Positions 1 through 58,225 of a DNA stretch of 64,000 bases are shown here, one piece after another. The stretch lies in the IMG/VR virus record IMGVR_UViG_3300022868_000009, positions 1-64,000 of that record; one strand, 5' to 3'. The DNA is from a virus. Below the pieces are notes generated by a model, which was given only the letters and a program-made list of their open reading frames with translations, searched no databases and was not told where the DNA came from. The position numbers and the translations under genes were made by a program. Positions within the stretch are counted from its first letter, which is position 1; each line of letters opens with the position of its first letter.

Positions 1-236
1 AATTCTTCAGGTAATTTAGGTAATTCAGTTAATTGGTTATAATAACAATATAATCTTTTTAATCCTTTAGGTAATTCAGGTAATTTAGTTAATTGGTTAT
101 TACCACAATATAATCCTTCTAACCCTTTAGGTAATTCAGGTAATTTTTTTAAGAAAAAACCATCTAAATCTAATATTTTACCATCATCATAATCTTTAAT
201 TAATTTATTTTCATTGTATGTCTTTAAATACTTCAT
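1..236 (-). CDS. Leucine-rich repeat protein, truncated by window edge
   Basis: The ATG start at 236 overlaps the stop codon of the upstream gene (TAATG), and the frame stays open to the window edge, so only the N-terminal 78 codons are seen. The protein begins with the recurrent KYLKTY peptide. It continues into 20-residue leucine-rich repeats of the pattern LPELPKGLK-LYC-NNQLTK, the short bacterial type known from YopM/IpaH-like proteins. It is a close paralogue of the LRR gene at 20714-21253. Such repeats usually bind protein partners; the partner here is unknown. The N-terminal tag suggests possible packaging in the virion, which is inference. Confidence 0.8.
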   Translation of the reverse strand, partial: MKYLKTYNENKLIKDYDDGKILDLDGFFLKKLPELPKGLEGLYCGNNQLTKLPELPKGLKRLYCYYNQLTELPKLPEE

Positions 237-580
237 TAAATTATATTCATTTTACCAGCTTCTAAAAAAGCATTCATATCTAAATCTTCCAATTCAATAA
301 ACTCTTCAAATGAAAATTCATGAAAAATACCATTAAATCTAACTCTACTTTGATGTGATATTTCATCTTTTGTAGTATTAACAATCATCTTTTTAGGATT
401 AAAATTAACATATTTTGATTTTAAATGCTTGTATCCTATAATATCACTTGGCCAAACATAACCGTTATCAAAAAGTCTTTTTTGAACATATCTAGATTCT
501 TCTTCATTATTAACTCTAACAGCAAAAAAACATAAAATATCTGAACCAATTTCTTCTAAATATGTCTTTAAATATTTCAA
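236..580 (-). CDS. Small tagged protein of unknown function
   Basis: A 114-residue protein with a TTG start at 580, chosen because it places the KYLKTY peptide exactly at the N-terminus as in its neighbours. The C-terminus (LEAGKMNII) is a divergent version of the KLGLL-type tail seen in nearby proteins. I recognise no catalytic motif in the middle. It overlaps the LRR gene downstream by the TAATG arrangement, which suggests translational coupling within one cassette. Function unknown. Confidence 0.7.
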   Translation of the reverse strand: MKYLKTYLEEIGSDILCFFAVRVNNEEESRYVQKRLFDNGYVWPSDIIGYKHLKSKYVNFNPKKMIVNTTKDEISHQSRVRFNGIFHEFSFEEFIELEDLDMNAFLEAGKMNII

Positions 581-674
581 CTTTGTTTAATATTGTATTT
601 TACTTATATCAACTTATATATTTAATTTTCAAACTTAAATTTTTTAAATTCATATAAAAAGAAAAAGAATTAAT

Positions 675-983
675 ATGTCTACTTCAATTCCACATGGATG
701 GTATACAGATTCAACCGGAATATCTATATCAACTGGAACAACATTTACAAGTACTTACACAGATATTTATGAATCACCACCTACAACACTACAACAATTA
801 ATAGATTATTGTAATGATAGAAAATTAACTGAAAAAGATTTAGAATGGTTAGAATATAACGTACCTTTCACTATTAATATATATGAACAATTACAAAAAA
901 TTGAAAATAAATTAGATAAACCTTTTTCTGCGGTAGTTAAGCAAAAATTAAGAAAAATGAAATTGGATAGAGTTAAAGTTTAA
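675..983 (+). CDS. Hypothetical protein
   Basis: A 102-residue protein on the forward strand between two reverse-strand genes. The N-terminal third is rich in Ser, Thr and Tyr (STSIPHGWYTD onward). The C-terminal half is charged and likely helical, ending in a Lys/Arg-rich stretch (KQKLRKMKLDRVKV). The ATG is preceded by an A-rich run (AAAAAGAAAAAGAATTAAT), the usual start context in this window. I recognise no family. A forward-strand AT-rich promoter-like stretch lies near 610-625. Confidence 0.6.
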   Translation: MSTSIPHGWYTDSTGISISTGTTFTSTYTDIYESPPTTLQQLIDYCNDRKLTEKDLEWLEYNVPFTINIYEQLQKIENKLDKPFSAVVKQKLRKMKLDRVKV

Positions 984-988
984 ATATT

Positions 989-1477
989 TCATAATAACCC
1001 CAATTTTTCTCCTTCTATTTTATGTGCGTATTTTATAATAAATTTATCATAACTTAAATATTTCGCCACGTCATATATTAATTTTATAAAATCTTTTGAG
1101 TATATTTGTCCAGTATAATCTGTATAATCATTATAACTATTTATAATATTATTATAATCTGATTGATTAATTTGATTTTTATGTGTTATTAATTTACTTA
1201 ATGAAAAACCATAACCATGTTCAGCTATTCTAGACATAATTTTAATTTGTTCCAATTTTAATCTATCATCTATACTCCATGTAAATGTTTTAACATCACC
1301 AATACTGGTAATTAATTCATAATAATCTTCGAAAAGTTCTTCTTTTAATTCACGATCATGTATGTACTCTATATCTTGTTTTATGTGTTTAAAATGATGA
1401 TCATTTAAATCGTTTAATAAACCACTCAATTTTACAACTTCAGAATTTCTATCTTCATATGTCTTTAAATATTTCAT
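989..1477 (-). CDS. Small tagged protein (KTYE head, KLGLL tail)
   Basis: A 162-residue protein beginning MKYLKTYEDRNSE and ending KIEGEKLGLL, so both recurrent terminal peptides are present. The body is charged and predicted mainly helical, with no motif I recognise. Its start codon overlaps the stop of the gene upstream (1477-1761) by one base (TAATG). The cassette 1-1761 therefore looks like one coupled operon of tagged proteins with unrelated bodies. Confidence 0.75.
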   Translation of the reverse strand: MKYLKTYEDRNSEVVKLSGLLNDLNDHHFKHIKQDIEYIHDRELKEELFEDYYELITSIGDVKTFTWSIDDRLKLEQIKIMSRIAEHGYGFSLSKLITHKNQINQSDYNNIINSYNDYTDYTGQIYSKDFIKLIYDVAKYLSYDKFIIKYAHKIEGEKLGLL

Positions 1478-1761
1478 TACATTAAACCTAATTTACCACC
1501 CTCAACAATTGATTCAATATCACTAATATGTTCTGGGAATTTATAATTAAAATCATAATCATAATAATCTAAATTAATAAAATGAGATATGTTATAACCT
1601 AAAGATTTAACTGTCTCTTGTGCTGTACTTAGACTAAAATCATCTGAATATTGGTAATGTAATTTTCCGTTTATGTACATTGCTGCTTGATTAAAATCAT
1701 ACATAACAACAAAAATCACATCTTTATTCTCTTTATTTTCATATGTCTTTAAATATTTCAT
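1477..1761 (-). CDS. Small tagged protein (KTYE head, KLGLM tail)
   Basis: A 94-residue protein beginning MKYLKTYENKENKD and ending VEGGKLGLM. The middle reads like a small alpha/beta domain (VIFVVMYDF near residue 17, then Tyr-rich segments). No family is recognised. It is the first gene of the reverse-strand cassette that runs to position 1, and a promoter-like motif lies 27-41 bases upstream, inside the 3' end of the homing-endonuclease gene. Confidence 0.75.
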   Translation of the reverse strand: MKYLKTYENKENKDVIFVVMYDFNQAAMYINGKLHYQYSDDFSLSTAQETVKSLGYNISHFINLDYYDYDFNYKFPEHISDIESIVEGGKLGLM

Positions 1762-1787: not shown

Positions 1788-1802
1788 TTATATATTAAAA
1801 TT
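1788..1802 (-). promoter_or_regulatory. Putative T4-like late promoter
   Basis: On the reverse strand this reads AATTTTAATATATAA. It is the recurrent motif of this window and sits upstream of the gene starting at 1761. No -35 element is apparent. Assignment to the gp55-like sigma factor is inference. Confidence 0.45.
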
Positions 1803-3565: not shown

Positions 3566-5329
3566 TTAAATAAGTACTCCATTTGTGTCTGTAACCTGTA
3601 TTTCCATGAATTGTTTCCAAGGAAAAAAGCCTATGTCAGCTATGGCATATCTTGAACGAATTAACATTCTTGGTGCCCAAGTTGCCTCTGAAATTAAACT
3701 AATAGACTGAGCCATTAGATAAGGAATGAAAATCAAACCTGGTTGATCAACTGAATTCTTTCTTCCTAAAAAGACTCTGTTATCGTCCCATCTCATATAA
3801 GGATCTACATAGATAGCTATGTTACCAATATTACCCATTGGGTATAATTGACCATTTGTATTCAATTTACCTGCGTTAACTGGATTGATAGTATAACCTG
3901 CAATATCTTGAATAACTGATGCAACGTTTCCGTTAGTTACTAAATATTGAGCTGGTCCTACTCTACCATCTGTTGCGATAAAGTTTGAAGCATTATTGAT
4001 TTTAGCAATAAGTTTTCTTTGGATTGAATGAGTAGTTTCTCCTCCTGGTGCAGGACCGAATCCTGTAGCACCAATATAAGTGTCTACGTCAAAATCAAAC
4101 TTAGGAGTACCTGTTGAATCAACTGGAGTTGTTGCTGAAGCTCTGTTTTGAGCAGCTAATTCTCTAATCTTAGCAACAATTTGTTTAGAAATTGTTTGTG
4201 TAAGTTCGTTAATTAATACTGACTCAAGTTTCTGAACAATGTCCATACCTGTTGAAGCTTTAATATCTTCAATTTGAGTTCTCTTAAGAGCTGATGTAAT
4301 CTCGATATCACCTACTTGTACTGACTTAGTAAATACGTCAGGACCGATAACACCTGGATATGTGTTTTCATCTACTTCTCTTAACATTGGGTTTTTATCA
4401 TCCCATCCTGCTACGAAACCAGGAATATGATCTTCCATTAATGAAACTAGTTCAATAGATGTTGTACCAGTAAAATCATAATTTGTAGTTGTTAATAATT
4501 CAGCACCTTGTAACAATGTTGTTACTGAATCAGTACTAGAAACATCAAATGTGTTTCTTTTAGCTACAGTTGGATAAGCACCTGAAACAGGAGCACCAAT
4601 TTGTTTAAATGTACGGAACATTGGTTTACCATCTATTCTTGAAAAACCTAAAAATTCTAACCAACCTTGACGACCTTCAGTAACTGTAGGTTCAATCAAA
4701 CTTGTTGTAGCATCGAAAGTTCTGGTTTTATCTGTATCATCATAATATGTGTCAACAGTTGTTGTACCTGATATTGAGAAGAACATTCTTGATGTTAATC
4801 CACCAATTGTTTCAGTTACACTTGCTGTTGCCATATCAGCTGCAAGATCAGCTCTTAACAATGTATGTTGAGCTGCGATGTTAGTGTCTATTTTAAACAC
4901 CAATGGTCTTTCGTCTCTATCAGTACCATCTGCATTATTGTCATATTTAAAATCGACGAATAATAATTCGATACGTGGAGAAGAAGAAGGTTTAACTGCT
5001 AATAGGTCAAGACCAATTGTTTGAGCAGCAATCTTCATTGATACTGGAAGTAAGTTTTGTGCGATATCACCTGATCCATCAACTGATTGTTTCACGCCAC
5101 TGTCAGCACCATTCCATACAGCACCTGGAGTTCCCCATGGTGTTGGAGGAGCAACTGCGCCCATACCATTTAAGTTACCAAGTGTTGAATAAGAAATATT
5201 CTCATTCATTTGGTGCATTTCGGCATATTCTGCCATCCATGTTCTCTTGTCTTCATCTTCTACTCTTAGAGTATCTAGAACAGGAGCCCATTTTTTTAAC
5301 GCTTTTGATTTGTCTACTATAAAATTCAT
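3566..5329 (-). CDS. Major capsid protein, T4 gp23-like
   Basis: A 587-residue protein with the layout of the T4 gp23 family (T4 gp23 has 521 residues). The N-terminus (KALKKWAPVLDTL) matches the gp23 start. The central segment SALKRTQIEDIKASTGMD then INELTQTISKQIVAKIRELA corresponds to the SIELAQDLRAVHGMDA ... EINREVVDWI region of T4. The C-terminal half has the nucleotide-free P-domain pattern GNIAIYVDPYMRWDD and PYLMAQSISLIS. It forms the hexameric shell lattice. It follows the protease-scaffold gene, as in T4, and ends at a strong terminator. Maturation cleavage by the upstream protease is expected, but I could not place the site. Confidence 0.93.
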   Translation of the reverse strand: MNFIVDKSKALKKWAPVLDTLRVEDEDKRTWMAEYAEMHQMNENISYSTLGNLNGMGAVAPPTPWGTPGAVWNGADSGVKQSVDGSGDIAQNLLPVSMKIAAQTIGLDLLAVKPSSSPRIELLFVDFKYDNNADGTDRDERPLVFKIDTNIAAQHTLLRADLAADMATASVTETIGGLTSRMFFSISGTTTVDTYYDDTDKTRTFDATTSLIEPTVTEGRQGWLEFLGFSRIDGKPMFRTFKQIGAPVSGAYPTVAKRNTFDVSSTDSVTTLLQGAELLTTTNYDFTGTTSIELVSLMEDHIPGFVAGWDDKNPMLREVDENTYPGVIGPDVFTKSVQVGDIEITSALKRTQIEDIKASTGMDIVQKLESVLINELTQTISKQIVAKIRELAAQNRASATTPVDSTGTPKFDFDVDTYIGATGFGPAPGGETTHSIQRKLIAKINNASNFIATDGRVGPAQYLVTNGNVASVIQDIAGYTINPVNAGKLNTNGQLYPMGNIGNIAIYVDPYMRWDDNRVFLGRKNSVDQPGLIFIPYLMAQSISLISEATWAPRMLIRSRYAIADIGFFPWKQFMEIQVTDTNGVLI

Positions 5330-5466: not shown

Positions 5467-7902
5467 TTATATATTTTTAAGTCTGTTATAGAATCTGTCT
5501 AATTGATCTTCTGATAATGTCGTATTATCAACTAGTTGGTTCTTTTGTAGAACTTGTTTAGATTCTTTAATTAATGAATAGTTTTCCATTTTTCTACTAT
5601 TCCAAAAAGCTTCCATTTTTGCAGGAGTATCTAAATTAGGATACAATTTAGCAGTTAATAGTATGCTTTTCTTTTGGTCATTTTCTAGACCTTCATATAT
5701 TGGTTGTAAATCACTAGGGATATTTTCTACCAATACATCTTCAAAAGTTTTCTTAACACTTAGAGCATCAGTCATAGCTTTAAGGACTTGATTTTCTGAA
5801 TAATACGTGCTTTCGTTTAATGCAAGTTTTACTTTTTCTCTATCTTCGTCAGTTAAAGAATGATAAGATTTTTTATTTCTCTCTGTTAAGAATTGTAAAA
5901 AATGAGGCTCGCTATTTGCAGCTACTTTACGTTTTTTAGTTTCAGTAATAAGTTTGCCAATTTGAGATTTCAATGAATCTTCATTTTCTAATATTTTATC
6001 ACCAATAATGATGATTTTACTTTCGTGTATTTGTAATTCTTCTTGATTGTCTGTTAATTTTAAAAGTACCATACCATCGTTAGGCATGTAAGCCATAACT
6101 TCACCTGGTCTATCATTAAATGTTGCAGTCATTCCAGGAACAATTTGATCACTAACTACTTCTTGTCCTTGTACACTCACAGGTGCAACACCTATACTAG
6201 TATCAACTACTGGTGGTTGTGCTTGTACATCAATTTGAGTCTGTGCTTGAACTGGTTGTCCAAATTCATCAACTTCAGCTTGAGCTTGAGCATCTTGTTG
6301 AACAAATTCTTGTCCTTGTTGAGCTTGAGCTTGAACATCTTGTACTTGTGCATCAGCGTCTAATTGTATTGGACTTTGAATTGCATCAGTTGTTTGTGCT
6401 TGAGTTTGATTTTGATTTTGAACAAAATCAGTATCAGTATCATTATCATAAAATCTTTCTACATTTTGAACTTTCATATTAGGCATTTGAGCACCTTGAT
6501 TTTCGTTCAGTTCACCACTATTTAAATGTTCAACAGTTTGGTCTAAAGATTCTGCAAGATAATTTTGATATGCTTGAGTATCAGCAACATTTTCTGCAAT
6601 ATATTCACTATAAGCGATATTGTTATCTACATGTTCTGCAATATATTCACTATAAGCGATATTGTTATCTACATGTTCTGCTACATACTCAGTATAAGCG
6701 ATATTGTTATCTACATGTTCTGCAATATATTCTGCATATTCAATATTGTTATCTACATGTTCTGCAATATATTCTGCATAAGCAATATTTTTATCAAGAT
6801 TTTCTGCTACATATTCTGAATAGTCGATAGATTTTTCAATTGATTCAGCTAAATAATCTGAAAATTGAATATTCTTATCAACGTTCTCAGCGATATACTC
6901 AGAAAAGTCGATATTTTTGTCTAATGTTTCAGCGATGTATTCACTGTAATCAATAGTTTTGTCTAATTCTTCAGCAATGTATTCTGAATAGTTGATAGAC
7001 TTTTCTAATTCTTCTGCTAAATAGTCATTGTGTTTAACAAGACCTTCTGTTTTAGCTTTCAATGTTGAGTTTTCATTAACTACATGTTGAATCTGATCAG
7101 CTAAATAATCTAAATAGCCTGTTACAGAAATTTGTTGTTCGTTTAAATTTTCTAGAAGTTCAGCCATTTTCATCATTCTCTCAGGTTCTACTCCACCTTT
7201 GGCATTTTCTTCAAAGAAACGTTGAACTGATTCAATTTGTTCAGTTAAATAATTTGAATACTCAATCATTTGATTTTTTGTTACAAATTCGTTGTTGTTA
7301 TTCATTTCTAAGAAATCATTAAATTTTGACGAATCTGATAAGTCATAAATACGAAAGTTTGAACTTTCATTAAAACCTAAAGACTCGTTGAGTGATTTTA
7401 ATTCCATTTTTGCAGAACTAAAACCTGGATCTGCAACGGCATCATATGTAAAAAGTTTCTTTATAGCCACCGTACCATTACTTTCAGTAATACCAGCCGC
7501 TCTAGAGCTAACAAAAATAGGGCAATTGTCATCGACTAATGCTTTAGCCTCTTTGCCCCAATGTGTATTAAGTAACCTAATTGTACCTTCTACTCTATTC
7601 GCTTGTGGATTATGAAAAATTGATTCCAATGTATGTGAAACTCTTGCAAGTGATGTATCGAACACGTCAGGATGATCGAATTCACCATATATGACACCTA
7701 AGTTTTTTTTACGTTCATTAAGTTCGCCTAAATGCGGTAAAAACTTATCAGAAGTATAAATTCTTTCATTACGATTAACTACATCAAATTCGGTAAAAAT
7801 ACCTCCTAAAATATATTCTTTCTTTTGAGAACTTTGCTCCTGAATGAGTTTTAAACCATCAGTCGAATTTTCAATGATCAAAACCGGTTTGTTTCCATTC
7901 AT
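5467..7902 (-). CDS. Prohead protease (gp21-like) fused to repeat-containing scaffold
   Basis: An 811-residue fusion. Residues 1-170 form a T4 gp21-type serine protease: GIFTEFDVVNRNERIY, the catalytic-His motif GEFDHP and the catalytic-Ser motif FVSSRAAG. Residues about 290-457 are twelve 14-residue repeats of the pattern YSEYIAEHVDNNI, a likely coiled coil. The rest is Gln-rich (about 500-580), then a charged C-terminal domain. In T4 the protease (gp21) and core scaffold (gp22) are separate neighbours, so here one gene appears to supply both. Each repeat contains I/L/V-A-E, mostly matching the (I/L)-x-E cleavage consensus of gp21. The gene sits between portal and capsid genes, as in T4. Confidence 0.9.
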   Translation of the reverse strand: MNGNKPVLIIENSTDGLKLIQEQSSQKKEYILGGIFTEFDVVNRNERIYTSDKFLPHLGELNERKKNLGVIYGEFDHPDVFDTSLARVSHTLESIFHNPQANRVEGTIRLLNTHWGKEAKALVDDNCPIFVSSRAAGITESNGTVAIKKLFTYDAVADPGFSSAKMELKSLNESLGFNESSNFRIYDLSDSSKFNDFLEMNNNNEFVTKNQMIEYSNYLTEQIESVQRFFEENAKGGVEPERMMKMAELLENLNEQQISVTGYLDYLADQIQHVVNENSTLKAKTEGLVKHNDYLAEELEKSINYSEYIAEELDKTIDYSEYIAETLDKNIDFSEYIAENVDKNIQFSDYLAESIEKSIDYSEYVAENLDKNIAYAEYIAEHVDNNIEYAEYIAEHVDNNIAYTEYVAEHVDNNIAYSEYIAEHVDNNIAYSEYIAENVADTQAYQNYLAESLDQTVEHLNSGELNENQGAQMPNMKVQNVERFYDNDTDTDFVQNQNQTQAQTTDAIQSPIQLDADAQVQDVQAQAQQGQEFVQQDAQAQAEVDEFGQPVQAQTQIDVQAQPPVVDTSIGVAPVSVQGQEVVSDQIVPGMTATFNDRPGEVMAYMPNDGMVLLKLTDNQEELQIHESKIIIIGDKILENEDSLKSQIGKLITETKKRKVAANSEPHFLQFLTERNKKSYHSLTDEDREKVKLALNESTYYSENQVLKAMTDALSVKKTFEDVLVENIPSDLQPIYEGLENDQKKSILLTAKLYPNLDTPAKMEAFWNSRKMENYSLIKESKQVLQKNQLVDNTTLSEDQLDRFYNRLKNI
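6532..7035 (-). repeat. Twelve in-frame 42-base repeats encoding scaffold coiled coil
   Basis: Twelve consecutive 14-codon units encode Y-x-x-Y-(I/L/V)-A-E-x-(L/V/I)-(D/E)-x-x-(I/V). The four copies nearest 6600-6760 are nearly identical at DNA level (ACATGTTCTGCAATATATTC on the forward strand), which suggests recent expansion. Two heptads per unit fit a continuous coiled coil. Confidence 0.9.
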
Positions 7903-9797: not shown

Positions 9798-11513
9798 TTA
9801 GAATTGAGTCTGTACTCCACCTTCATCACCGCCTTGTACTCCGCCTTCTTGTGAACCACCACCTTCACCAAAGTCACTATCGCCTTCACCACCTTCACCA
9901 AAGTCACTGCCTTCATCACCACCTTCTCCACCTGGAGCACCTCCACTATCTGGAGCACCACCGCCTTGACCTGGAGCCATTCCACCACCAGTCATTTTGT
10001 ATTTGTCGTTTTCAGCTATATCTTCATCTGTTAATTTCATAATATTTCTAACAATCCACTCAATATGTAAATAAGGATCGCCTTTTTCATCTTGTAGGTT
10101 ACCACTTAATGTAGCAGCAATATCAGATCTTTTTGCTAAATTATTTAAATATTTCCATTCTTCAAATAAATGATTTTTATTAAAAATAGATTTCAATGAA
10201 TAATGAAATAAATTATCATCTTTTAATTCAGGAAAATCTAAAATTGTTTGTATTTTTAAAGGTTTAATTATAACTTCTTTAAATAATGTTTGTAGTCTTC
10301 TTATATAATTTCCAAATTTAATTTCTTCTCTTGTCATTTCAGCACTATCACTATAAATATTACCTCCACCACTTTCTTCCTCAAATCTACTAAATGGAAT
10401 ATGAGTAGCTCTTTTAAGGTTTTTATAAAACCAATTTAACATAGAATCTTCATTTAAATCAGTACCTTGTGATTGCATTATTTCAATATCTGGTGTTCCT
10501 TCACCTGACTGTGGAAACCAAAAATCTTTACTATGAGGAATATCTGTAGAACCATTTATACTAACAGTACCCATTCTATCATCCCATTGAACATCTTCAT
10601 GGTATTCAGCCATCAATTGATAAACTTGTTGTTCAGCTTGTTGTCTTGTCAAACCTCCAACTGGAATTACAAATTTCTTATACATAGCAGCTTGATTAAT
10701 ATTATATAGTAATCTTGTTTGTTCAACTAATTTTAATTGATTATAAGGTCTAATTAAATTTTCTACATAAGATGTTTCAGCATACTCATTATTATTTGAA
10801 TAAGAAATATAAATTATTTGTGAATCTAATAAAACTCTTCTTTGTTGTGGGTTATCTGGATATTGAATCCATACAACTGTAGATGTTCCAGGATCAGTAG
10901 CAACTATCAAAGTCATTGGATCTAAGGGAACTAAATCAATTATACTTTTTTGTCTATTATCATACACTAATTCAAATGTAATATATCCATCAATTAATAA
11001 AGATTTAAAATATTGCCATGCAGTAATACCATCATTAAACCCAAAATTTATCATTAATTTTTTATAATTTTCTTGATATTTTTGTTTAATTGTATTATCA
11101 AATTCATCTGGTAAATCTTGCATTTTACAAAATTGATTATCATCATTATAAATAACAGCTTCATTTGCTATATCTTCTAAAAATCCTTTAATTTCATCTT
11201 TAATAGAATATTGTCTAAGAATTTTTCTTTTATCTTCATAAGATCTATCTAAATATGCAATATTCTTCCTATTTAATACCTTAGAGATGACCTTTTTTGT
11301 AAAAATATCATACATATTAGTTCCTGATTCAGCATTAGTTTGATTTGGATCTTCATGTATTCCAACTGCTACAGTATTCTTTAATACCATATCACCATAA
11401 TCCATTCCGAATGTACTAAGATTTCTTAATAATCTATTAAAAAATCCTTTGTTTTCAACTGTTCCACCTAGATCAGATGTAGTATTTTTTTGATAAGGGT
11501 TATATGTTGCCAC
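9798..11513 (-). CDS. Portal protein, T4 gp20-like
   Basis: A 571-residue protein starting with GTG at 11513 (MATYNPYQK). The core matches the T4 gp20 family: YLDRSYEDKRKILRQYS near the start, the wing and stem regions, and the segment VDLVPLDPMTLIV. The conserved helical region IPFSRFEEESGGGN ... EEIKFGNYIRRLQTLFKEV follows. The last 65 residues are an unusual Gly/Glu/Asp/Ser-rich, probably disordered tail (GGGMAPGQGGGAPDSGG and onward). As dodecameric portal it would nucleate the prohead and form the DNA channel. Gene order portal, protease-scaffold, capsid follows T4. Confidence 0.9.
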   Translation of the reverse strand: MATYNPYQKNTTSDLGGTVENKGFFNRLLRNLSTFGMDYGDMVLKNTVAVGIHEDPNQTNAESGTNMYDIFTKKVISKVLNRKNIAYLDRSYEDKRKILRQYSIKDEIKGFLEDIANEAVIYNDDNQFCKMQDLPDEFDNTIKQKYQENYKKLMINFGFNDGITAWQYFKSLLIDGYITFELVYDNRQKSIIDLVPLDPMTLIVATDPGTSTVVWIQYPDNPQQRRVLLDSQIIYISYSNNNEYAETSYVENLIRPYNQLKLVEQTRLLYNINQAAMYKKFVIPVGGLTRQQAEQQVYQLMAEYHEDVQWDDRMGTVSINGSTDIPHSKDFWFPQSGEGTPDIEIMQSQGTDLNEDSMLNWFYKNLKRATHIPFSRFEEESGGGNIYSDSAEMTREEIKFGNYIRRLQTLFKEVIIKPLKIQTILDFPELKDDNLFHYSLKSIFNKNHLFEEWKYLNNLAKRSDIAATLSGNLQDEKGDPYLHIEWIVRNIMKLTDEDIAENDKYKMTGGGMAPGQGGGAPDSGGAPGGEGGDEGSDFGEGGEGDSDFGEGGGSQEGGVQGGDEGGVQTQF

Positions 11514-12960: not shown

Positions 12961-13101
12961 ATGATTAAAGAAATAGGAGAAATGAAAGTTGCTAATATGT
13001 TAGCAAGTAAATTTTTAAAAGATTTTAATCCAGTAATTGATGAATATATAGTTCAATATATCGGAGCGGAAACAGAAGGTGAAAAAATGGGATTAATGTA
13101 A
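12961..13101 (+). CDS. 46-residue tagged small protein
   Basis: The start follows the previous stop by three bases. The protein begins MIKEIGEMKVANML and ends ETEGEKMGLM, the KLGLL-type tail. Its stop overlaps the next ATG (TAATG). It lacks the KTYE head but shares the tail and the coupled organisation with the other tagged genes. Function unknown. Confidence 0.65.
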   Translation: MIKEIGEMKVANMLASKFLKDFNPVIDEYIVQYIGAETEGEKMGLM

Positions 13102-13586
13102 TGAAAAATCTAAAAACTTTTGAATCATATATAATAGACAAATATAAAGAACGGGGAGAAAATAGTGAAAAAGAACGTGAAATTCATGGAGAAATACAAA
13201 AACTTCAAAACAAAATCTACATTTTACAAAAAAAAGAAAGTGAATATGTTAGAAAAAATGATAAATCTAATTTTTTTTTAAATGAAGAATATTTTAAATT
13301 AAAAAATATCTTACCATTCGAAGATAATGGTCGATTTTTAATTTTCACATTCGATAAACTTTGTACAATAGAAAATAAATCATACCAAGATTTAAGAATA
13401 AAGAAAAACAACACAAAACGTCTTTCTAATTTTAGTTTAGGTATTTCTTCAAATAAAAGATCTGATACTCATGACCCAAGTACAGTTGTAACAGATTTCA
13501 AAGTTCAAAAACAATACAAAATATTAGATTGGATACATGTAAATTATCCAGAATATTTTCAAGCAAATAAATTAGGACTGTTATGA
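13101..13586 (+). CDS. Tagged protein (KTFE head, KLGLL tail)
   Basis: A 161-residue protein beginning MKNLKTFESYI and ending YFQANKLGLL. Residues about 20-50 form a charged coiled-coil-like helix (EKEREIHGEIQKLQNKIYIL). The rest is an uncharacterised alpha/beta region. Its stop overlaps the next start by ATGA. It shares both terminal peptides with genes near 1000-1761, whose bodies are unrelated. Confidence 0.75.
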   Translation: MKNLKTFESYIIDKYKERGENSEKEREIHGEIQKLQNKIYILQKKESEYVRKNDKSNFFLNEEYFKLKNILPFEDNGRFLIFTFDKLCTIENKSYQDLRIKKNNTKRLSNFSLGISSNKRSDTHDPSTVVTDFKVQKQYKILDWIHVNYPEYFQANKLGLL

Positions 13587-14086
13587 AATATTTAATAACA
13601 TATAATGAATTAACAGGTTCAGCTAGTTATCCATACGAATTAGTTAAAACAAAAAATATAATCTTAGATGATGATGAAACAGTAACAATGATAACATATA
13701 AATTTAAATCTAAAGGTGGTAATATATATACAAATATCCTTCAATTTAAAGGAGATGATAATCATATGTTTTCTGTAAATTTTCAAGATGAAGATAGTTA
13801 TTTTAAAGAACTTGATAAAGATGGTATTTATGATATTAATTATTTAAATACAAATAAAGGTGATGCTGTCATGATTATTTCTACTGTTTGTAATATTATT
13901 CAAGATTATTATGAAAAACATAAAGATCATCTATATTTATTTGGGTTTACTGTAACAGAACCTAAAAGATTAAATATATATAAATATTATCTTCAAAACA
14001 TGTTTCCTGAATGGAAATTAGAAGAAGAAGAAATTAAAGATAATATTCATCGTTTAACTTGTACTAAAGATATAATTTTCGATTAA
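13583..14086 (+). CDS. Tagged protein related to 28712-29359
   Basis: A 167-residue protein beginning MKYLITYNELTG, with the head peptide but no KLGLL tail. The segment FGFTVTEPKRLNIYKYYLQN then FPEW resembles GETEHPTKIKFYRNIIKD then LPEY in the protein at 28712-29359. Upstream, HMFSVNFQD parallels NVFNLSFTT there. These suggest one shared, undescribed domain. The start overlaps the previous stop (ATGA), so it is probably coupled. Confidence 0.7.
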   Translation: MKYLITYNELTGSASYPYELVKTKNIILDDDETVTMITYKFKSKGGNIYTNILQFKGDDNHMFSVNFQDEDSYFKELDKDGIYDINYLNTNKGDAVMIISTVCNIIQDYYEKHKDHLYLFGFTVTEPKRLNIYKYYLQNMFPEWKLEEEEIKDNIHRLTCTKDIIFD

Positions 14087-14607: not shown

Positions 14608-15156
14608 CTATTTAATATAACCTTTTTTAATCATATCATGTATATATTGTGAATGTTGTATATTTTTATTATTGGCATAACCAATAGTCATATGCATCCC
14701 CCAATAAGGTCTATCTAAATCAACTTCTGATCTAATTTCATCAAAAGTTGTTCTTTGTTCTGGAGTAACTCTTAACCACCAATGTTCACCATCAGTTTTT
14801 AAACCTAAATCTAAATAAACATCAACTTTTTTACCATTCCATTTTTTCTTTACCTCTTGCCATTTAGCCTCTTTTTGAACTTCAGTTCCTTTCCCCATAT
14901 CTTTGTAAGAATCATTTATAAAAGTAACATGAGCATTTCTCATTGGTTTATTTAATTCTAAATTATATCTTTTCTTTACAAACCACGAATAATATTCACA
15001 TAATTCACCCTCTAACATTACCATAGCAACTTTCTTCCAAATAGATTGTTGTTTTTGTTTTTCAGTTTTATCAACTGGATCAAACACAATTGTTCCTTGT
15101 ATTTTAATTTGTTCATTCATGTTTTCATTGATATAATCACTAAATAATGTAATCAT
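14608..15156 (-). CDS. 2H phosphoesterase-like protein
   Basis: A 182-residue protein with two HxTx motifs, AHVTFI (His76, Thr78) and MHMTIG (His155, Thr157), the signature of the 2H phosphoesterase fold (RNA ligase-like, cyclic phosphodiesterases, phage anti-CBASS Acb1). The N-terminus ITLFSDYINE resembles the capsid-targeting peptide of T4 internal proteins, including the (I/L)-x-E end. Substrate is unknown: RNA 2',3'-cyclic phosphate or a cyclic oligonucleotide defence signal are both possible. It is convergent with the sigma-factor gene. Confidence 0.75.
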   Translation of the reverse strand: MITLFSDYINENMNEQIKIQGTIVFDPVDKTEKQKQQSIWKKVAMVMLEGELCEYYSWFVKKRYNLELNKPMRNAHVTFINDSYKDMGKGTEVQKEAKWQEVKKKWNGKKVDVYLDLGLKTDGEHWWLRVTPEQRTTFDEIRSEVDLDRPYWGMHMTIGYANNKNIQHSQYIHDMIKKGYIK

Positions 15157-20393: not shown

Positions 20394-20726
20394 ATGATAG
20401 TTTCATTTAATGAATTTCTTAATGAAAATTTTATTTCTGGAAGATTTCTCACCAATATTAATGGCAGAGAAATTGTACTTAAACTTCAAGTAGAATATAT
20501 AAATTTATTAACAAAAGTTTATCTTATAAAAGATAATAAAGTTTATGATAATTTATCTATTAATTTACCTGATTCACGTAAACTTAGAGAAGGTGAATTC
20601 TTTTTAAATCCTGATATTAATTCTAATATTGTAAAAGAATTAACAAAACAAAACTTTATAACAAAACAAAAAACAGAATCGATTGCAGGTGATAAAAAAA
20701 CAACAGCATACAAATTAAATATTTAA
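20394..20726 (+). CDS. Small protein with capsid-targeting-like N-terminus
   Basis: A 110-residue protein starting MIVSFNEFLNENF, which resembles the T4 capsid-targeting peptide (MKTYQEFIAE), including an L-x-E end. The body is predicted beta-rich, with no known motif. Its last four codons overlap the start of the LRR gene in another frame. It leads a four-gene forward cassette to 23156. Confidence 0.7.
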   Translation: MIVSFNEFLNENFISGRFLTNINGREIVLKLQVEYINLLTKVYLIKDNKVYDNLSINLPDSRKLREGEFFLNPDINSNIVKELTKQNFITKQKTESIAGDKKTTAYKLNI

Positions 20727-21253
20727 AGACATATAGTGAAAATCAATTAATTAATGACCATTTAAGTGATGATGGTAAAACATTAGATTTAACTGGTTTA
20801 AATCTAACTGAATTACCTGAATTACCTAAAGGGTTAAAAACATTATATTGTTATAATAACTATTTAACTGAATTACCTGAATTACCAAAAGGGTTAAAAG
20901 AATTATTTTGTAATAATAACCAATTAACTAAATTACCTGAATTGCCTAAAGGCTTATTAAAATTAGATTGTGAAGATAACAAATTAACTAAATTACCCGA
21001 ATTACCTAAAAATTTAGAAGAGTTATATTGTGAAAATAACCAATTACCTGAATTACCTGAATTACCTAAAGGATTAAAAAGTTTATATTGTAATCATAAC
21101 CAATTAACTAAATTACCTGAATTACCAAAAGGGTTAGAATATTTATTTTGTAATTATAATGAATTACCTTATGATGATTTAGATGGTTATTGGGAATGGT
21201 TTTGGAAAGAAAACCCAGACCTTCATAATGCAAATAAAATGGGATTATATTAA
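20714..21253 (+). CDS. Leucine-rich repeat protein with apparent ATT start
   Basis: A 179-residue protein when read from ATT at 20714, which gives the same head (KYLKTYSENQLIND) as the paralogue at 1-236, where the codon is ATG. No in-frame ATG, GTG or TTG lies between 20714 and the repeats; a TTG at 20942 would cut the repeats in half. Six or seven 20-residue LRRs of the form LPELPKGLK-LYC-NNQLTK fill residues 35-155. The protein ends in NANKMGLY, the KLGLL-type tail. It overlaps the upstream gene by 13 bases. AUU initiation is known for infC; an ATG-to-ATT mutation is the alternative. Confidence 0.75.
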   Translation: MKYLKTYSENQLINDHLSDDGKTLDLTGLNLTELPELPKGLKTLYCYNNYLTELPELPKGLKELFCNNNQLTKLPELPKGLLKLDCEDNKLTKLPELPKNLEELYCENNQLPELPELPKGLKSLYCNHNQLTKLPELPKGLEYLFCNYNELPYDDLDGYWEWFWKENPDLHNANKMGLY

Positions 21254-22795
21254 ATGAAATATTTAAAAACATACAAATTATTTGAAAACCCTAACCATAT
21301 TTATAAAAATATTAAAGGAGAATGGATTGATTTATCATTCGAAGATGATGATGCAATTCCATTTTTTTATGATATTGAATTAAATACTATATTTTTAGGT
21401 CAATCAAAAATTGATGGTATATACTATATACACCCCGAATTAATACAAATTGTCAATAAACATAGATCACAAAAAGGGTACGCACCATTAAGCATTTATG
21501 ATACAAATCTATTATACTCTGGTAGAATTTGGAAAGGTAGAAAAGTAATATCTTTTTGGTCATATCCAGATAAAGAAATGTTTGACATTATAATAAATAA
21601 ATTAGAAGATAAATCTTCTGTAAGAATATGGGGTAATGATTGGTTAATTGAAGTAGTTATAGGTGATGATAATATATCAATTAAAAATTTACCTTACAAT
21701 TGGAAAGATAACAACGCAATGGAAAAAGGTATAATTAAAATGGTACCTGTTGATGAATATGATAAAAGTGAAAACTTTGATAGAGAAGATCATATTAAAT
21801 CACCATTAAATAAATCTAAAAAACCGACATACTATAAAACATCTAAACACAAACCAAAAAATATCACTAATATTGAATATAAAGGAATGATGAAAAATAT
21901 ATATCAAGAAAGTATATTATCATTTGGAGAATATATTAAAGAAACTCCTGATTATATTTATAATAGAAATACTGAGTGGGAAATGGAATGGTCTGATGAT
22001 GATGCAAGACCTTTTCAATATTTAACTAATGATCTTTTTTCCGGTGAAAAAAGTGGTGAATTTCATTTAGGTAATTATGGCGACAATCATCCAGATATGT
22101 TTCCTTCAGGTGGATTATATTCAGGTAGAATATGGGATGACCCATCAAAACAAATAATATCATTTTGGGATTATCCACCAAATAAAGAAGAATTCAAAAA
22201 AATTATAGATCAATTAGAAAGAAAAACTGGGCATAAGATTTGGAATAAAGATTGGAAAATAGAAGTTTTAGTCGATAAAAACATTAATAGATGGGATATT
22301 GAAGCCGGTGATGATATGACTTCAGATTTAGAATCAATAATAATACCTGTTGTAGATTATACTGGTAGTGAAGACACTCCTAAAGAATTATTAAATATGC
22401 ATTTAAAAGATAAATCTAAACTCAAAGTTCCAACTGGTTTTGGTTCTAAACATAAACATAAATATCAAACAAATCTTGAACCGATTCGTTATAAAAATAT
22501 GATGAAAAATGTATTTACTGAAAATGTAGACACAAAACCAAAAAGAAAGAAGAAAAAAGTAATATACGAAGCAATTATCAATGATATTAAAGGAAATATT
22601 ATATCATATATAACTAATTTTAAAATGACTAAATTAGAAGAAAAGTGGATGACTTGTAATGTAAAAGGATACAAGAAAAAGAAAGTTGAAGGATACAAAA
22701 CTAAAGTTTGGGTTTATTTTGAAGATAAACTTAAATTAAATACAAAATGTTTTAAAAATGGTAAAATAGAATTACTAGTAATAGATGATAAATAA
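21254..22795 (+). CDS. Tagged protein with internally duplicated domain
   Basis: A 513-residue protein beginning MKYLKTYKLFENPNH. Two copies of one undescribed domain (residues about 10-200 and 235-420) share the pattern LYSGRIW-(6-8)-ISFW-YP, (K/R)IW-(N/K)DW-IEV and a closing YK-MMKN segment. Between the copies lies ESILSFGEYIKE, which looks like a second targeting peptide, suggesting in-frame fusion of two adjacent paralogues. The C-terminal 90 residues are Lys-rich. It has no KLGLL tail. It starts on the base after the LRR stop. Confidence 0.75.
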   Translation: MKYLKTYKLFENPNHIYKNIKGEWIDLSFEDDDAIPFFYDIELNTIFLGQSKIDGIYYIHPELIQIVNKHRSQKGYAPLSIYDTNLLYSGRIWKGRKVISFWSYPDKEMFDIIINKLEDKSSVRIWGNDWLIEVVIGDDNISIKNLPYNWKDNNAMEKGIIKMVPVDEYDKSENFDREDHIKSPLNKSKKPTYYKTSKHKPKNITNIEYKGMMKNIYQESILSFGEYIKETPDYIYNRNTEWEMEWSDDDARPFQYLTNDLFSGEKSGEFHLGNYGDNHPDMFPSGGLYSGRIWDDPSKQIISFWDYPPNKEEFKKIIDQLERKTGHKIWNKDWKIEVLVDKNINRWDIEAGDDMTSDLESIIIPVVDYTGSEDTPKELLNMHLKDKSKLKVPTGFGSKHKHKYQTNLEPIRYKNMMKNVFTENVDTKPKRKKKKVIYEAIINDIKGNIISYITNFKMTKLEEKWMTCNVKGYKKKKVEGYKTKVWVYFEDKLKLNTKCFKNGKIELLVIDDK

Positions 22796-23156
22796 ATACG
22801 AAAAATTCATATATGAACGTTTAGGACAGAATGAAGGTGATATTAATATCGTTGGTATTCATGTTAATGATAAAAATCTAGATGTAATACTTGAAGAAAT
22901 ATCAAATTATTTTAACTTGAAAAGCTTTTTAAATGCTGATTTTGTAAGAAAAAGTGCATCTAGAGAATTGTTTTATGTTAATATATATCCAGTCAATAGT
23001 AATTATAATTACTTTTGGAATAGTATAAATGAATATGATAATATCTTTAATGATTTGGATGAACCTAATACATATAAACTAGAAGATTGGTTTGAAAAAT
23101 ACTTAAATGTTACATTAGAAGAATTTGTAGAAGCTAAAAAATTAGGACTATTATAA
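22785..23156 (+). CDS. Small protein (CTS-like head, KLGLL tail)
   Basis: A 123-residue protein starting MINKYEKFIYERLG, similar to a capsid-targeting peptide, and ending EEFVEAKKLGLL. The body is a small alpha/beta domain with no recognised motif. It overlaps the previous gene by 11 bases, closing the forward cassette. It is convergent with the kinase gene, whose stop is the next base. Confidence 0.7.
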   Translation: MINKYEKFIYERLGQNEGDINIVGIHVNDKNLDVILEEISNYFNLKSFLNADFVRKSASRELFYVNIYPVNSNYNYFWNSINEYDNIFNDLDEPNTYKLEDWFEKYLNVTLEEFVEAKKLGLL

Positions 23157-24824: not shown

Positions 24825-24835
24825 ATCAGTAATAT

Positions 24836-25576: not shown

Positions 25577-25577
25577 T

Positions 25578-25863: not shown

Positions 25864-25864
25864 A

Positions 25865-26077: not shown

Positions 26078-26078
26078 A

Positions 26079-35672: not shown

Positions 35673-35921
35673 CTATAAAACTTTATATTTTAAGATATTA
35701 TTTAAACTATTCTTAGGATCTTTTTCTACTACGAATCCGCCTTTCCAATTAGATTTTTCAGCTTGTTTGAATAACTCATCATAAGTACCTTTATCAAGTT
35801 GTAGATGCATTTCTTCTTTTCGTTTAATATGGTCATCTAATTGCTTGAGTAAAATATTCTTTCTTTGTTGAACACCTTCGTTCATTTCGTTAAATTCGTT
35901 AAATTCATCATAACTTTTCAT
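35673..35921 (-). CDS. Small helical protein with CTS-like N-terminus
   Basis: An 82-residue protein starting MKSYDEFNEFNEMNEG, close to the capsid-targeting pattern of T4 internal proteins. Residues 20-60 are a charged helix. Unknown function; a packaged internal protein is possible. Confidence 0.6.
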   Translation of the reverse strand: MKSYDEFNEFNEMNEGVQQRKNILLKQLDDHIKRKEEMHLQLDKGTYDELFKQAEKSNWKGGFVVEKDPKNSLNNILKYKVL

Positions 35922-37932: not shown

Positions 37933-38646
37933 TTACACAATTTCCGATTTTATTGCATTTGGTGGAATATTATCATAAGTATAATATGCTTCAGAATCTT
38001 CGTTAAACTTTGGATCTTTATGTAATTTAATATTATTAATCATCACTTTCATATCTATTTCTAGAATAATATATTCTTCCTTAGAATGAAATTCTTTTTC
38101 TTCTAAGTAATTTTTAGATATTTTTTCATTTCCAAATAAATAAATTCTTTCTGGATGTTGTTCAATAACGTTTTTAGTTTTAGGAACTATACCTTGTTTT
38201 TTAATTTTATCTAAATTTTTTTTATTTGTAACATGATATAATTTTTCTGGTACACCAACTTCAGAATCAAATCTTTTATTTAAATAAACTATGAAATCTT
38301 CATCTTTTTTCCAAACATGTGTTGAAATACTTGTTTTTTTACCATCCATATACTGGTTTGAAATATTATAACCTAAATTATTTACCAAAATCAATAAATC
38401 AGAATAAAATTCTTTTAATCTTTCTCCATAAAAATTAAGTTCAATTCTATCTTTAAGAATATATAATTTGACACTACCTTTTACTTTATGTTTTTTAAGC
38501 AAATCGTCGATTTTTTGAACTGATATATCATAATCAATACTTTTAATAAGACCCTCTTTAATTAAATTATAATTGAAAGACTCTAACATTTTATTATTAA
38601 AGTCATGATGATATCCACAAAATTCAAAATATTTTTTCATATTCAT
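37933..38646 (-). CDS. Putative ADP-ribosyltransferase-fold protein
   Basis: A 237-residue protein. The C-terminal half contains LYHVTNKKNLDKIKKQGI then ERIYLF and a distant EAYYTYDNIPP, a pattern recalling DarT/KptA-like ADP-ribosyltransferases (His in YHxT, Gly-hydrophobic after Ile-rich helix). The protein at 54608-55393 has the same pattern. Both contain LIKEGLI near the N-terminus; here it follows ESFNYN, suggesting a capsid-targeting peptide ending in I-K-E. T4 Alt is a packaged ADP-ribosyltransferase, so an injected enzyme is plausible. Catalytic Glu is not certain. Confidence 0.6.
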   Translation of the reverse strand: MNMKKYFEFCGYHHDFNNKMLESFNYNLIKEGLIKSIDYDISVQKIDDLLKKHKVKGSVKLYILKDRIELNFYGERLKEFYSDLLILVNNLGYNISNQYMDGKKTSISTHVWKKDEDFIVYLNKRFDSEVGVPEKLYHVTNKKNLDKIKKQGIVPKTKNVIEQHPERIYLFGNEKISKNYLEEKEFHSKEEYIILEIDMKVMINNIKLHKDPKFNEDSEAYYTYDNIPPNAIKSEIV

Positions 38647-49262: not shown

Positions 49263-49475
49263 TTAGAGTTTGTTTAATCGTTCAATAACACGATTTTCAA
49301 TATCAGGTATCACCAATCTTTCTAAGGTTTTTAATATCTCTTTATCAATTTCTTCAGTAACAGATTCAGAGAATTGTGTTTCCCATTCATTAACAGCATC
49401 ACTACCATAAATTTCTGATAAATCTTGTGCGGTTTCTCTTCCCCAAATAGCTCTTGCGCCTCTCTTTTTTCTCAT
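49263..49475 (-). CDS. Small hypothetical protein
   Basis: A 70-residue protein (MRKKRGARAIWGRETAQ at the start) with a basic N-terminus and helical remainder. No family is recognised. It overlaps the Nudix gene by four bases. Confidence 0.55.
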   Translation of the reverse strand: MRKKRGARAIWGRETAQDLSEIYGSDAVNEWETQFSESVTEEIDKEILKTLERLVIPDIENRVIERLNKL

Positions 49476-50173
49476 CTTAATAAATTTGATAACATATAAA
49501 ATTGTGGTGCTAACATTTCTTCGGCTTTTTCTTTACCAACAAAACCTGCCCAATCAACTTCTTCTGCTTGTAGATTTTCTTTTGGTATAGTCAAAACACT
49601 AAAATAATTCTTAAATTCTTGTGAATCTAAATATATAACAGTATAATAATAAGTTTTAAATTTACTATTTTTAAATACACCACAAGTTTTAAATTCTTTT
49701 TCTTTTACTTTTTCTAGTGGATAACCAACACCTATTTCTTCTGCAACTTCTCGAATTGCAGCTTGTGGTTTTGTTTCACCTTCTTCTAAATGACCTTTTG
49801 GATAAGAACATGTTTTTTCCCAATTCAAATTAACATCATGTACTAATAACATTTTATTATTATAAATAAACACAATTCCTGCTGAAAATGATTCATTTAA
49901 TTTCTTAAATTGATATTGAAATTCACTTTTAGTAATCTTAAATAAACCATCTGTTTCATCAAAACCACCAAACTCATCCATTTTCTGGACCATCATGTTA
50001 TCAACACCAGGTATCATAGGATCCGTATTCATCATTTCACGAACCTTAAAATTACCTAATTCTTTACCATCTCTCCAAATTCTGATATAATTATCAACAT
50101 TAAGTTGTTCAAATGATATAAATTCATTAATTTCTTCAACATTTTCTTTTAAAAATTTATAGTAATTTTTCAT
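49472..50173 (-). CDS. Nudix hydrolase with CTS-like N-terminus
   Basis: A 233-residue protein. The start (MKNYYKFLKENVEE) resembles a capsid-targeting peptide ending in L-K-E. Residues about 98-200 hold a Nudix domain with the box GHLEEGETKPQAAIREVAEE then IG, matching GX5EX7REUXEEXGU. Nudix enzymes hydrolyse nucleoside diphosphate derivatives, such as ADP-ribose, NADH, CoA or RNA caps. The substrate is open. If packaged it would act early in infection, which is inference. Confidence 0.82.
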   Translation of the reverse strand: MKNYYKFLKENVEEINEFISFEQLNVDNYIRIWRDGKELGNFKVREMMNTDPMIPGVDNMMVQKMDEFGGFDETDGLFKITKSEFQYQFKKLNESFSAGIVFIYNNKMLLVHDVNLNWEKTCSYPKGHLEEGETKPQAAIREVAEEIGVGYPLEKVKEKEFKTCGVFKNSKFKTYYYTVIYLDSQEFKNYFSVLTIPKENLQAEEVDWAGFVGKEKAEEMLAPQFYMLSNLLR

Positions 50174-52376: not shown

Positions 52377-53423
52377 TTACATTATTCCTAATTTCTGTGC
52401 GTTATATATTGATTGTATATTATTAATTATGTTGTTTAATTCTTTATCATCTAAATTTTTAATTTTATTAGAAAAATCTCTAGAAGCAAACCATTTATAA
52501 CATTTGCTTTTTGGTTTTGCAAATTCCACTAAATATTTAAGTCTAGAATAACTTTTCATTTTATATTGCCATAAAATATCATCAAAATGTTCTTTTAGTA
52601 TATCAACATTATCTTTATAAACAACATTAACCCAAAAGAAATCTTCTGGTAATTTAGATTCATTATCCCAATATCTATCAATTTCAAATTCTAAATCATT
52701 CTGGAGTTGTTGGTAATCTTTTTTAGATTCATATTCTTGCGATTGATATTCAATATCATATGTATAAGGTAAATTATTACCAACTAATCTAAAAAAATCA
52801 CCTATACTATTAATATCTTTATCTTTTATATATTTTAAAAGTGCATCATATTCTACTGTGACACTTACACCATTTTGATATTTACCTGTATAAATAAAAT
52901 CATAATAAAATGGTTGTTCATTTGAGATTTCTTTCTCAATTAATATGGATAATGCTTTTTCTTTCACAATAGATAGTGAATATTTAAACGAATCTTTAAT
53001 TTCTTCAAGGTCAAAATTTTCAAAGAAAACTGCAAATTCTCCCTCATCAACATTATTATTTACATAATCAATCTTATTATCAAGATATTTTGCGAAATTT
53101 AAAACTTTTTGTATTTGTTGTGTAGTCATATAATGATGAATATAATTTACCTCATCATCATCAATATAAAATTCATAACCATATGAATTTGCAAATCTTA
53201 ACCATTCAATAACACCTCTTTCAATTTCCAATAAATCTTCAAAATCATCTATTTTAATATCAAATGATAATTCATCTTTTTCAACTTCTAAATAACCGTG
53301 ATTTTCTTGAATATCTAAATAATTTGAGATTTCTTCTGGTTTCTCTTCACCAGACATAATTTTCTCAACTACTTCTTTTAGGATAGAATTTTTAATATCT
53401 TCAAAATATTTAATATATTTCAT
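52377..53423 (-). CDS. Large tagged protein (KYFE head, KLGIM tail)
   Basis: A 348-residue protein beginning MKYIKYFEDIKNS and ending IYNAQKLGIM, so both terminal peptides are present. The acidic body has a central segment EFAVFFENFDLEEIKD and a C-terminal FKYSLS-like region, with no known motif. It is the largest protein carrying both tags, and lies far from the other tagged cassettes. Confidence 0.75.
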   Translation of the reverse strand: MKYIKYFEDIKNSILKEVVEKIMSGEEKPEEISNYLDIQENHGYLEVEKDELSFDIKIDDFEDLLEIERGVIEWLRFANSYGYEFYIDDDEVNYIHHYMTTQQIQKVLNFAKYLDNKIDYVNNNVDEGEFAVFFENFDLEEIKDSFKYSLSIVKEKALSILIEKEISNEQPFYYDFIYTGKYQNGVSVTVEYDALLKYIKDKDINSIGDFFRLVGNNLPYTYDIEYQSQEYESKKDYQQLQNDLEFEIDRYWDNESKLPEDFFWVNVVYKDNVDILKEHFDDILWQYKMKSYSRLKYLVEFAKPKSKCYKWFASRDFSNKIKNLDDKELNNIINNIQSIYNAQKLGIM

Positions 53424-53426
53424 CTA

Positions 53427-53680: not shown

Positions 53681-53681
53681 A

Positions 53682-54611
53682 TTAAATACCTAGATTTTTA
53701 TATATCTCATATGTTGTTTTAATTCCTTCGTCTAATTCTATTTTATATTTCCAACCAATTTCATTTATTTTAGAAACATCTAATATTTTTCTCATTGTTC
53801 CGTTTGGTTTTGTAATATCCCATGTTATATTACCTTTGAATCCAATAACTTTTGATATTTTCTCAGCTAGTTCTTTAATTGTAATATCAGAGCCTGTGCC
53901 AATATTAAGTATTTCATTTTTTTCATAATTATTCATTAAAAATACTAATGATTCTGCTAAGTCTTGTACATGTAAAAATTCTCTTTTAGGTGTTCCATCA
54001 CCCCACAAATTAACATCAGTATTATTTACCTTAGCTTCATGTATTTTTCTTATCATAGCTGCAAAAACATGACTCTTTTCTAAATCATAATTATCAGCAT
54101 CACTACCATATAAATTTGTTGGCATCACTGCAATATATTTTGTTCCATATTGATTATTATAATTCTCTATCATTTTCAGACCGGAAATCTTTGCAACTGC
54201 ATATGGCTCATTTGTTTGTTCTAATTTAGATGTCAATAAATATTCTTCTTTAATAGGTTGTGGACAATTCTTAGGGTATACGCAACTTGAAGCTAAAAAC
54301 AACACCTTTTTAACATCATTTAAATATGAATTATGTATGATATTATTTTGAATCATCATATTTTCATATAAAAATTCTGCTCTTCTTACATTATTATCAT
54401 ATATACCTCCTACTTTTGCAGCACACATAAATACATATTCTGGTTTTTGTTCTTCAAAAAAGATTTTAGTATCATTTTGATTAATTAAATTTAACTCTTT
54501 ACTTGTTCTAGTTATTAAATTAGTATAACCTTGATCTTGTAATGTTTTTAAAACTGAAGAGCCAACTAATCCTGTGTGACCAGCTACATATATTTTATCA
54601 TTTTTATTCAT
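53682..54611 (-). CDS. fcl: GDP-L-fucose synthase
   Basis: A 309-residue short-chain dehydrogenase: Rossmann motif GHTGLVGSS, MCAAKVGGIYDNN, SSCVYPKNCPQPIKE, the catalytic pair YAVAKISG (Tyr, Lys) and LWGDGTPKREFLHVQDLA. It converts GDP-4-keto-6-deoxymannose to GDP-L-fucose. With the Gmd gene at 55397-56419 it completes the GDP-fucose branch. It overlaps the ADP-ribosyltransferase-like gene by four bases. Confidence 0.93.
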   Translation of the reverse strand: MNKNDKIYVAGHTGLVGSSVLKTLQDQGYTNLITRTSKELNLINQNDTKIFFEEQKPEYVFMCAAKVGGIYDNNVRRAEFLYENMMIQNNIIHNSYLNDVKKVLFLASSCVYPKNCPQPIKEEYLLTSKLEQTNEPYAVAKISGLKMIENYNNQYGTKYIAVMPTNLYGSDADNYDLEKSHVFAAMIRKIHEAKVNNTDVNLWGDGTPKREFLHVQDLAESLVFLMNNYEKNEILNIGTGSDITIKELAEKISKVIGFKGNITWDITKPNGTMRKILDVSKINEIGWKYKIELDEGIKTTYEIYKNLGI

Positions 54612-55393: not shown

Positions 55394-55396
55394 CTA

Positions 55397-56419: not shown

Positions 56420-56438
56420 TTTTTCTTTTCTTTTCTTT

Positions 56439-58214: not shown

Positions 58215-58225
58215 ATTACTTCAGT

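Follow-up and report, generated by a model that had tools for sequence, protein, structure and literature searches.

Bacteriophage T4 packs three internal proteins (IPs) and Alt, and its packaging tag is borne by only three or four T4 proteins. The capsid targeting sequence of IPI, IPII and IPIII was described by Mullaney and Black (1996) and is reviewed in PMC9026906; mutagenesis has shown that residues 4 and 7 direct targeting, and residues 8 and 10 processing (PMC9026906). In the literature we found, there is no settled account of how the ten-residue T4 tag finds the core. The giant phages SPN3US and phiKZ also package many internal proteins that are cleaved by the prohead protease (PMC5694885). 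In contrast to the peptides described here, these inner body proteins mostly have long propeptides, often >100 aa, and share no short common tag. The injected anti-restriction protein DarB of P1 has an N-terminal capsid localisation signal, but this signal is not a short conserved peptide, and P1 has no separate identified scaffold (PMC9024508). The phage described here is uncultured, and its tagged set is predicted from the genome.

The phage studied here carries N-terminal heads of ~10 residues, some of which, like the T4 capsid targeting sequence, follow the order aromatic-x-x-aromatic-[IL]-x-E, and it likewise encodes an S77 prohead protease and a gp23-type capsid protein. It differs from T4 in having an estimated 70–90 carriers of the tag, in using a longer variant, MKxLKTY, whose P3 residue is Y, and in a scaffold that is fused to the protease and contains the motif as a tandem repeat. 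The window that we analyzed is the first 64 kb (positions 1–64000) of a 344,634-bp linear-fragment IMG/VR phage record. ORFs were listed over the whole 344,634-base record, which yields ~480 genes (476 first starts were counted). An unconstrained motif search was dropped, as it did not separate the tag from generic MK.. starts. In its place we used a matrix of nine columns, aligned at the first aromatic residue, trained only on the phage's own genome and applied with a threshold of 8 bits. Over the whole record 91 genes exceed 8 bits, and the rate at internal positions is 0.7%. Curation removed four signal-peptide-like starts above the threshold, leaving 87 tagged genes. Likely false positives among the 87 are 93117 (DUF7487 family), 89073 and 23157, and the tagged genes missed by the matrix include 14608, 52377, 104975 and 272407. 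Allowing for false positives and misses, we estimate ~70–90 true tags, or about one gene in six, which is more than the initial annotation had listed.

The tag heads are spread through the entire record, beyond the 64-kb window. The pattern M[KR]x[LI]xx[YF] is found at 45 of 476 first starts, against 1.2 expected from internal positions, and [YF]xx[YFW][ILVM]xE in 22 heads against 1.8 expected. The long variant of the tag has L/I-x-x-[YF] in place of two spaced aromatics, so that the aromatic pair is not present in every head; the commonest head, MKYLKTYNE, often lacks the second aromatic plus I/L, unlike T4. An AT-rich composition bias of N-termini (MKK..F/Y) could in principle be mistaken for such a motif, and both the absorption of generic MK.. 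starts by the unconstrained search and the four signal-peptide-like starts above threshold are of the kind that this bias would produce. Against it, when each half of the genome was scanned with a matrix trained on the other half, 30 and 38 matches were recovered where 2.5 and 2.4 were expected, an excess of 12–15 times, and the AT-rich genomes of T4 and crAss001 gave only five and one matches. We consider composition bias an extremely improbable source of the 87 curated heads, which were obtained by a search of all N-termini of the full genome, the check that the initial annotation had named.

The heads rank as statistically equivalent to the T4 peptides when the matrix is applied to the 263 ORFs of T4, which were never in training. 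The top four are IPI (18.6 bits), gp61.1 (18.3 bits), and IPII and IPIII (16.9 bits); besides these only td (9.7 bits) exceeds 8 bits. In crAss001, a Bacteroides phage that has no such head machinery, a single ORF out of 101 exceeds the threshold, and this match is a membrane segment. The 735-kb phage LR756501 has 41 passing genes in the 400 kb sampled for tags, against 2.4 expected; MKTFNQFINE↓G and MIKTFDEFINE↓S are examples of their heads (the arrow marks the predicted cut). LR756502 has nine passing genes in 42 kb. The T4 protein gp61.1 (KJ477686, gene 61.1; 18952–19116 of the segment used) is an uncharacterised protein of 54 aa that begins MKTFKEFIKED... and scores beside the internal proteins, which makes it a candidate for a further small internal protein. 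The gene 61.1 region of T4 also holds the anti-toxin genes dmd and 61.2.

Within the window, every head named in the initial annotation was located in the ORF lists, with small corrections. Four genes on the minus strand lie at the start of the record: the tagged LRR protein MKYLKTYNEN... (3..236), which runs off the record's end and whose paralogue 97218 contains LRR_4; a 114-aa protein with the head MKYLKTYLEE (236..580; 13.6 bits), the start of which is corrected to TTG; a 162-aa protein, MKYLKTYEDR (989..1477; 13.4 bits); and a 94-aa protein, MKYLKTYENK (1477..1761; 13.6 bits). The latter two are located downstream of the capsid gene, with one gene between. They are followed on the plus strand by MKNLKTFESYII (head MKNLKTFESY; 13101..13586; 15.1 bits) and by MKYLITYNEL with a DUF6934 body (13583..14086; matrix and domain search), and on the minus strand by MITLFSDYINEN (MITLFSDYINE↓N; 14608..15156), a matrix miss that fits the T4 pattern. 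A plus-strand group comprises MIVSFNEFLNEN (MIVSFNEFLNE↓N; 20394..20726; matrix and T4 pattern), an LRR protein (20714..21253; from sequence), a 513-aa protein that passes the matrix and has no match in the Pfam search (MKYLKTYKLF; 21254..22795), and MINKYEKFIYE↓R (22785..23156; matrix and T4 pattern). For gene 20714 the initial annotation was right about the head, (I)KYLKTYSEN, which is intact, and wrong about the start, which is an isoleucine codon: an ATT-type or damaged start where the paralogues 97218 and 336852 have ATG. Further tagged genes of the window lie on the minus strand: MKSYDEFNEFNE (head MKSYDEFNEF; 35673..35921; 15.7 bits); a KptA/ART-like protein, MNMKKYFEF...LIKE↓GLI (37933..38646; matrix, weak Pfam match and motifs); a NUDIX protein, MKNYYKFLKE↓N (49472..50173; matrix, and NUDIX Pfam E = 6.3e-12); a weak-tag protein, MKYIKYFEDI (52377..53423), seen in the ORF list and under the matrix threshold; and a second KptA/ART-like protein, MKTYEQFLSLIKE↓GLI (head MKTYEQFL; 54608..55393), whose 21.8 bits are the best score.

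The window also encodes T4-type head machinery. The gp23-type major capsid protein (3566..5329, minus strand; PF07068, E = 4.7e-25) is 64% identical to that of LR756501. It is accompanied on the same strand by an 811-aa prohead protease-scaffold fusion (5467..7902) and a T4-type portal protein (9798..11513; phrog_213, E = 1.6e-64). The S77 protease domain is N-terminal in the fusion (7474..7824, minus strand) and is recognized by PF03420 with E = 5.7e-6, a match below the curated cut-off. His77 and Ser132/Ser133 are invariant in a 26-member alignment, and the His and Ser contexts GE(L/F)xHP and VSSR(G/A)xG are the same as in T4 gp21; we take this His and Ser to be the catalytic residues of a gp21-type protease. 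Foldseek places the prohead protease of T4 among the best matches of the fusion, along with the 'prohead core scaffolding protein and protease' of PTm1. None of the capsid, portal, terminase or sheath proteins identified in this record carries a tag.

The scaffold part of the fusion contains 11 tandem repeats of 14 residues (6529..7005, minus strand; pattern count). Their consensus is KNIxYSEYIAEN[LV]D, and the determinants of capsid targeting are present in every one. The pattern [YF]xx[YFW][ILVM]xE, which combines the four residues that mutagenesis of the T4 tag linked to targeting and processing, has 13 copies in the protease-scaffold against 0.28 expected, and at most two in any other protein. 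Across 50 homologous genes we counted 647 repeat units, of which 479 spacings are exactly 14; complete homologues have 9–16 copies each, and the more distant relative LR756500 has a degenerate form of the repeat. The repeat region was modelled as one long helix with low-to-moderate confidence (55.5). Tenacibaculum phage PTm1 and Chryseobacterium phage MA9V, of which 25–42 kb were read, similarly have a protease-scaffold fusion adjoining the capsid gene (annotated in PTm1), and MA9V has the head MKTFTCFINE↓A and the capsid N-terminus RWSEFINE↓A. However, they have few or no tags in these regions, and the 14-residue tandem array is absent from their scaffolds, as it is from T4 gp22. In the region of Lak that was read, a scaffold ORF was not found beside the capsid gene. 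The T4 capsid propeptide FGSFLTE↓A and that of MA9V, RWSEFINE↓A, are both tag-shaped. In the open-access literature searched, we found no description of the relation between repeat and tag or of a tag set of this size. LR756501 also has a 1691-aa protein (21458–26533 of the sampled segment), outside the scaffold, with seven repeats of ~60 residues, every one of which contains a tag-like pattern of the FVKY[LI]xE type.

The tag resembles a single 14-residue repeat (Y/F-x-x-F-I/L-x-E against Y-S-E-Y-I-A-E), which suggests that cargo is probably recruited by replacing a repeat. The two differ ahead of the first aromatic, where the tag has L-K-T and the repeat K-N-I-x. As T4 gp22 has no tandem repeat, mimicry of a repeat cannot be general. 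For this phage, we give even chances to the proposal that the tag loads cargo by mimicking the scaffold repeat.

The initial annotation had noted a cut motif at the end of several heads, and hydrophobic-x-E is found at residues 9–14 of 59% of tagged proteins against 19% of untagged ones. Of 61 predicted cut sites in tags, 28 have N at P2, 23 have N or S at P1' and 22 have Y at P3. The resulting letters N-E-N/S are those of a conserved site in the capsid protein, [LMI]NE↓N, where we predict a maturation cut at MNE↓N (residues 41–44; 5198..5209, minus strand). This [LMI]NEN-type site is conserved in relatives, and in some of them an HI insertion restores INEN. In the four members of the ART-like family, I-x-E-G-L-I is invariant within N-termini that are otherwise divergent. 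About 30% of tagged proteins lack the cut motif, and the predicted cleavage of the commonest variant, MKYLKTYNE-, is less certain because it has Y and not I/L at P3. MKYLKTYNE↓S would fall outside the T4 I/L rule and is the weakest link of the case.

These observations bear on an alternative in which the tag chiefly acts as a substrate of the protease or as a regulatory propeptide (of enzymes that are inactive until cleavage, for instance) and does not select cargo for injection. The enrichment of the cut motif and the use of the same cut letters in the scaffold and the capsid protein are in its favour. However, many heads retain the aromatics without a good cut site, and in T4 targeting (residues 4 and 7) can be separated from processing (residues 8 and 10); both sets are found together in heads of this phage. 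We judge the propeptide reading improbable compared with targeting.

Constraint on the heads acts on the peptide. In the 34 long heads, synonymous-codon identity where the residue agrees is 0.703, against 0.685±0.033 predicted by genome codon use, indicating that head codons are as free as elsewhere and that it is the peptide, not the DNA, which is constrained. Orthologues with bodies 24–42% identical retain tags in different letters: MIKKFSNLIE and MKYIKTYENH, MKKYGEFINES and MKNFTRFINEN, MKYLITYKQLLEFN and MDLLNNYSNFLNEFN. Some protein families have both tagged and untagged members. A DNA-level element that happens to encode KYLKTY, such as a translation enhancer, a promoter-proximal repeat or a recombination seed, would account for heads that are near-identical in DNA, for the existence of recent paralogues and for overlapping gene junctions at 18% of tagged against 9% of untagged genes. 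It does not fit the free variation of synonymous codons, the amino-acid pattern that is all the short heads have in common, its retention in other letters by orthologues, or the match of T4 proteins to the matrix. We rejected the DNA repeat reading on the codon test and regard a DNA-level element as very improbable.

The sequence AATATATA is found upstream of 21 of the 35 tagged genes in first position of a unit, against 51 of 199 untagged ones (p=1e-4). It lies mostly 10–50 bases before starts, and also precedes the capsid, protease-scaffold, portal and sheath genes. We propose that AATATATA is a putative late promoter element. The same test found no upstream enrichment of the T4 late box TATAAATA. 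Late timing of the tagged genes is inferred from this DNA element. At 302000–335800 of the record, many related proteins of ~100 aa with 'LYSLGYxW' segments are encoded in tandem; they are mostly untagged, few are preceded by AATATATA, and the region is perhaps an early one.

The bodies behind the tags are unrelated: the 87 curated genes fall in ~80 body clusters, in agreement with the earlier claim that the heads sit on differing proteins, for which the LRR (through a paralogue) and NUDIX assignments now have Pfam matches. Domains found on tagged proteins are NUDIX, RNase H, PolyA_pol/tRNA nucleotidyltransferase, DeoC aldolase, LRR and DUF6934, with DHH, Tpt1/KptA-like ART and 5'-nucleotidase below threshold. 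In each of the nine tagged proteins with Pfam matches that were examined, the domain begins behind the tag. The body called ADP-ribosyltransferase-like in the initial annotation shows the family motifs, while its Tpt1/KptA match is weak (E = 7e-4), and the quality of the structure predicted for the two ART-like proteins was too low for any use (pLDDT 43). PHROGs and PADLOC searches with 60 tagged proteins returned mostly unknown proteins, with a few enzymes among them and no notable defence family; a portal match on one protein was marginal and probably spurious. The cargo shows a thin theme of RNA repair and nucleotide functions. For some of it (RNase H, the CCA-adding-like enzyme, NUDIX), a role in the cytoplasm would be just as plausible. 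Short amphipathic N-termini can direct proteins elsewhere, whether to the membrane, to a compartment of replication or to a host complex, and the nucleotide and RNA enzymes of the cargo would be compatible with such a tag. Yet the heads have no hydrophobic stretch and match specifically the T4 internal proteins and the scaffold repeat, and we find such a destination as unlikely as the propeptide reading.

We conclude that the heads are very probably T4-type capsid targeting sequences. This reading, put forward as a candidate in the initial annotation, is supported by the blind recovery of the T4 internal proteins, by the S77 protease, gp23-type capsid and portal genes in the window, by the placement of the cut motif, by the common putative late element and by the tags kept in diverged orthologues. 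In the route that we infer from these sequences, tagged proteins would be made late in infection under the same putative promoter element as the head genes, and the two aromatics of the tag would dock them on the growing prohead core built of the protease-scaffold fusion, where each cargo protein would take the place of one scaffold repeat. After shell closure, cuts by the S77 protease would fall at many IAE sites in the scaffold, at [LMI]NE↓N in the capsid protein and at [IL]xE↓ in the tags, and the freed cargo would be left in the head and injected with the DNA. Taken as a whole, targeting tags, scaffold docking, cleavage and injection are with good confidence the best explanation of the data. 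A broader proposal, to which we give slightly less than even chances, is self-templated loading in this clade of huge phages: the tag would be a one-copy mimic of the repeat, any gene gaining it would have its product packed, as would have happened with about one in six, and an injected proteome of 70–90 proteins would act before phage genes are read. Were this true, the injected proteome would take in ART-like proteins, LRR proteins and enzymes acting on RNA and nucleotides. A scaffold with the tag determinants 9–16 times offers a concrete, testable model of binding. The tag would also predict from the genome which unknown proteins of huge phages are injected, and hence are candidates for counter-defence or takeover; the prediction is applicable to 735-kb phages, and in T4 it points at gp61.1.

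Several other features of the record were observed. From ~53400–64000 of the window to ~79000 of the record extends a long run of sugar-nucleotide and glycan genes, including GDP-mannose dehydratase, an epimerase and likely glycosyl- and methyltransferases, with the tagged ART-like gene 54608 inside it. A 178-aa protein (record 147588–148124) resembles the capsid protein at either end but lacks its middle part and has MNKN at the place of the NEN cut site; it is possibly a capsid remnant or a minor head protein. The large terminase (record 134669–137952) is apparently split by an intein- or intron-like insert. Eight paralogues, most of them 530–600 aa long, are located at 1788–3440 and 8010–9752 of the window and at 93117, 95580, 100168, 130817, 181954 and 204509 of the record; the one that was scanned is DUF7487, and one adjoins the capsid gene. 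They are probably homing endonucleases: PTm1 has a 'Hef-like homing endonuclease' at the same place as the capsid-adjoining paralogue.
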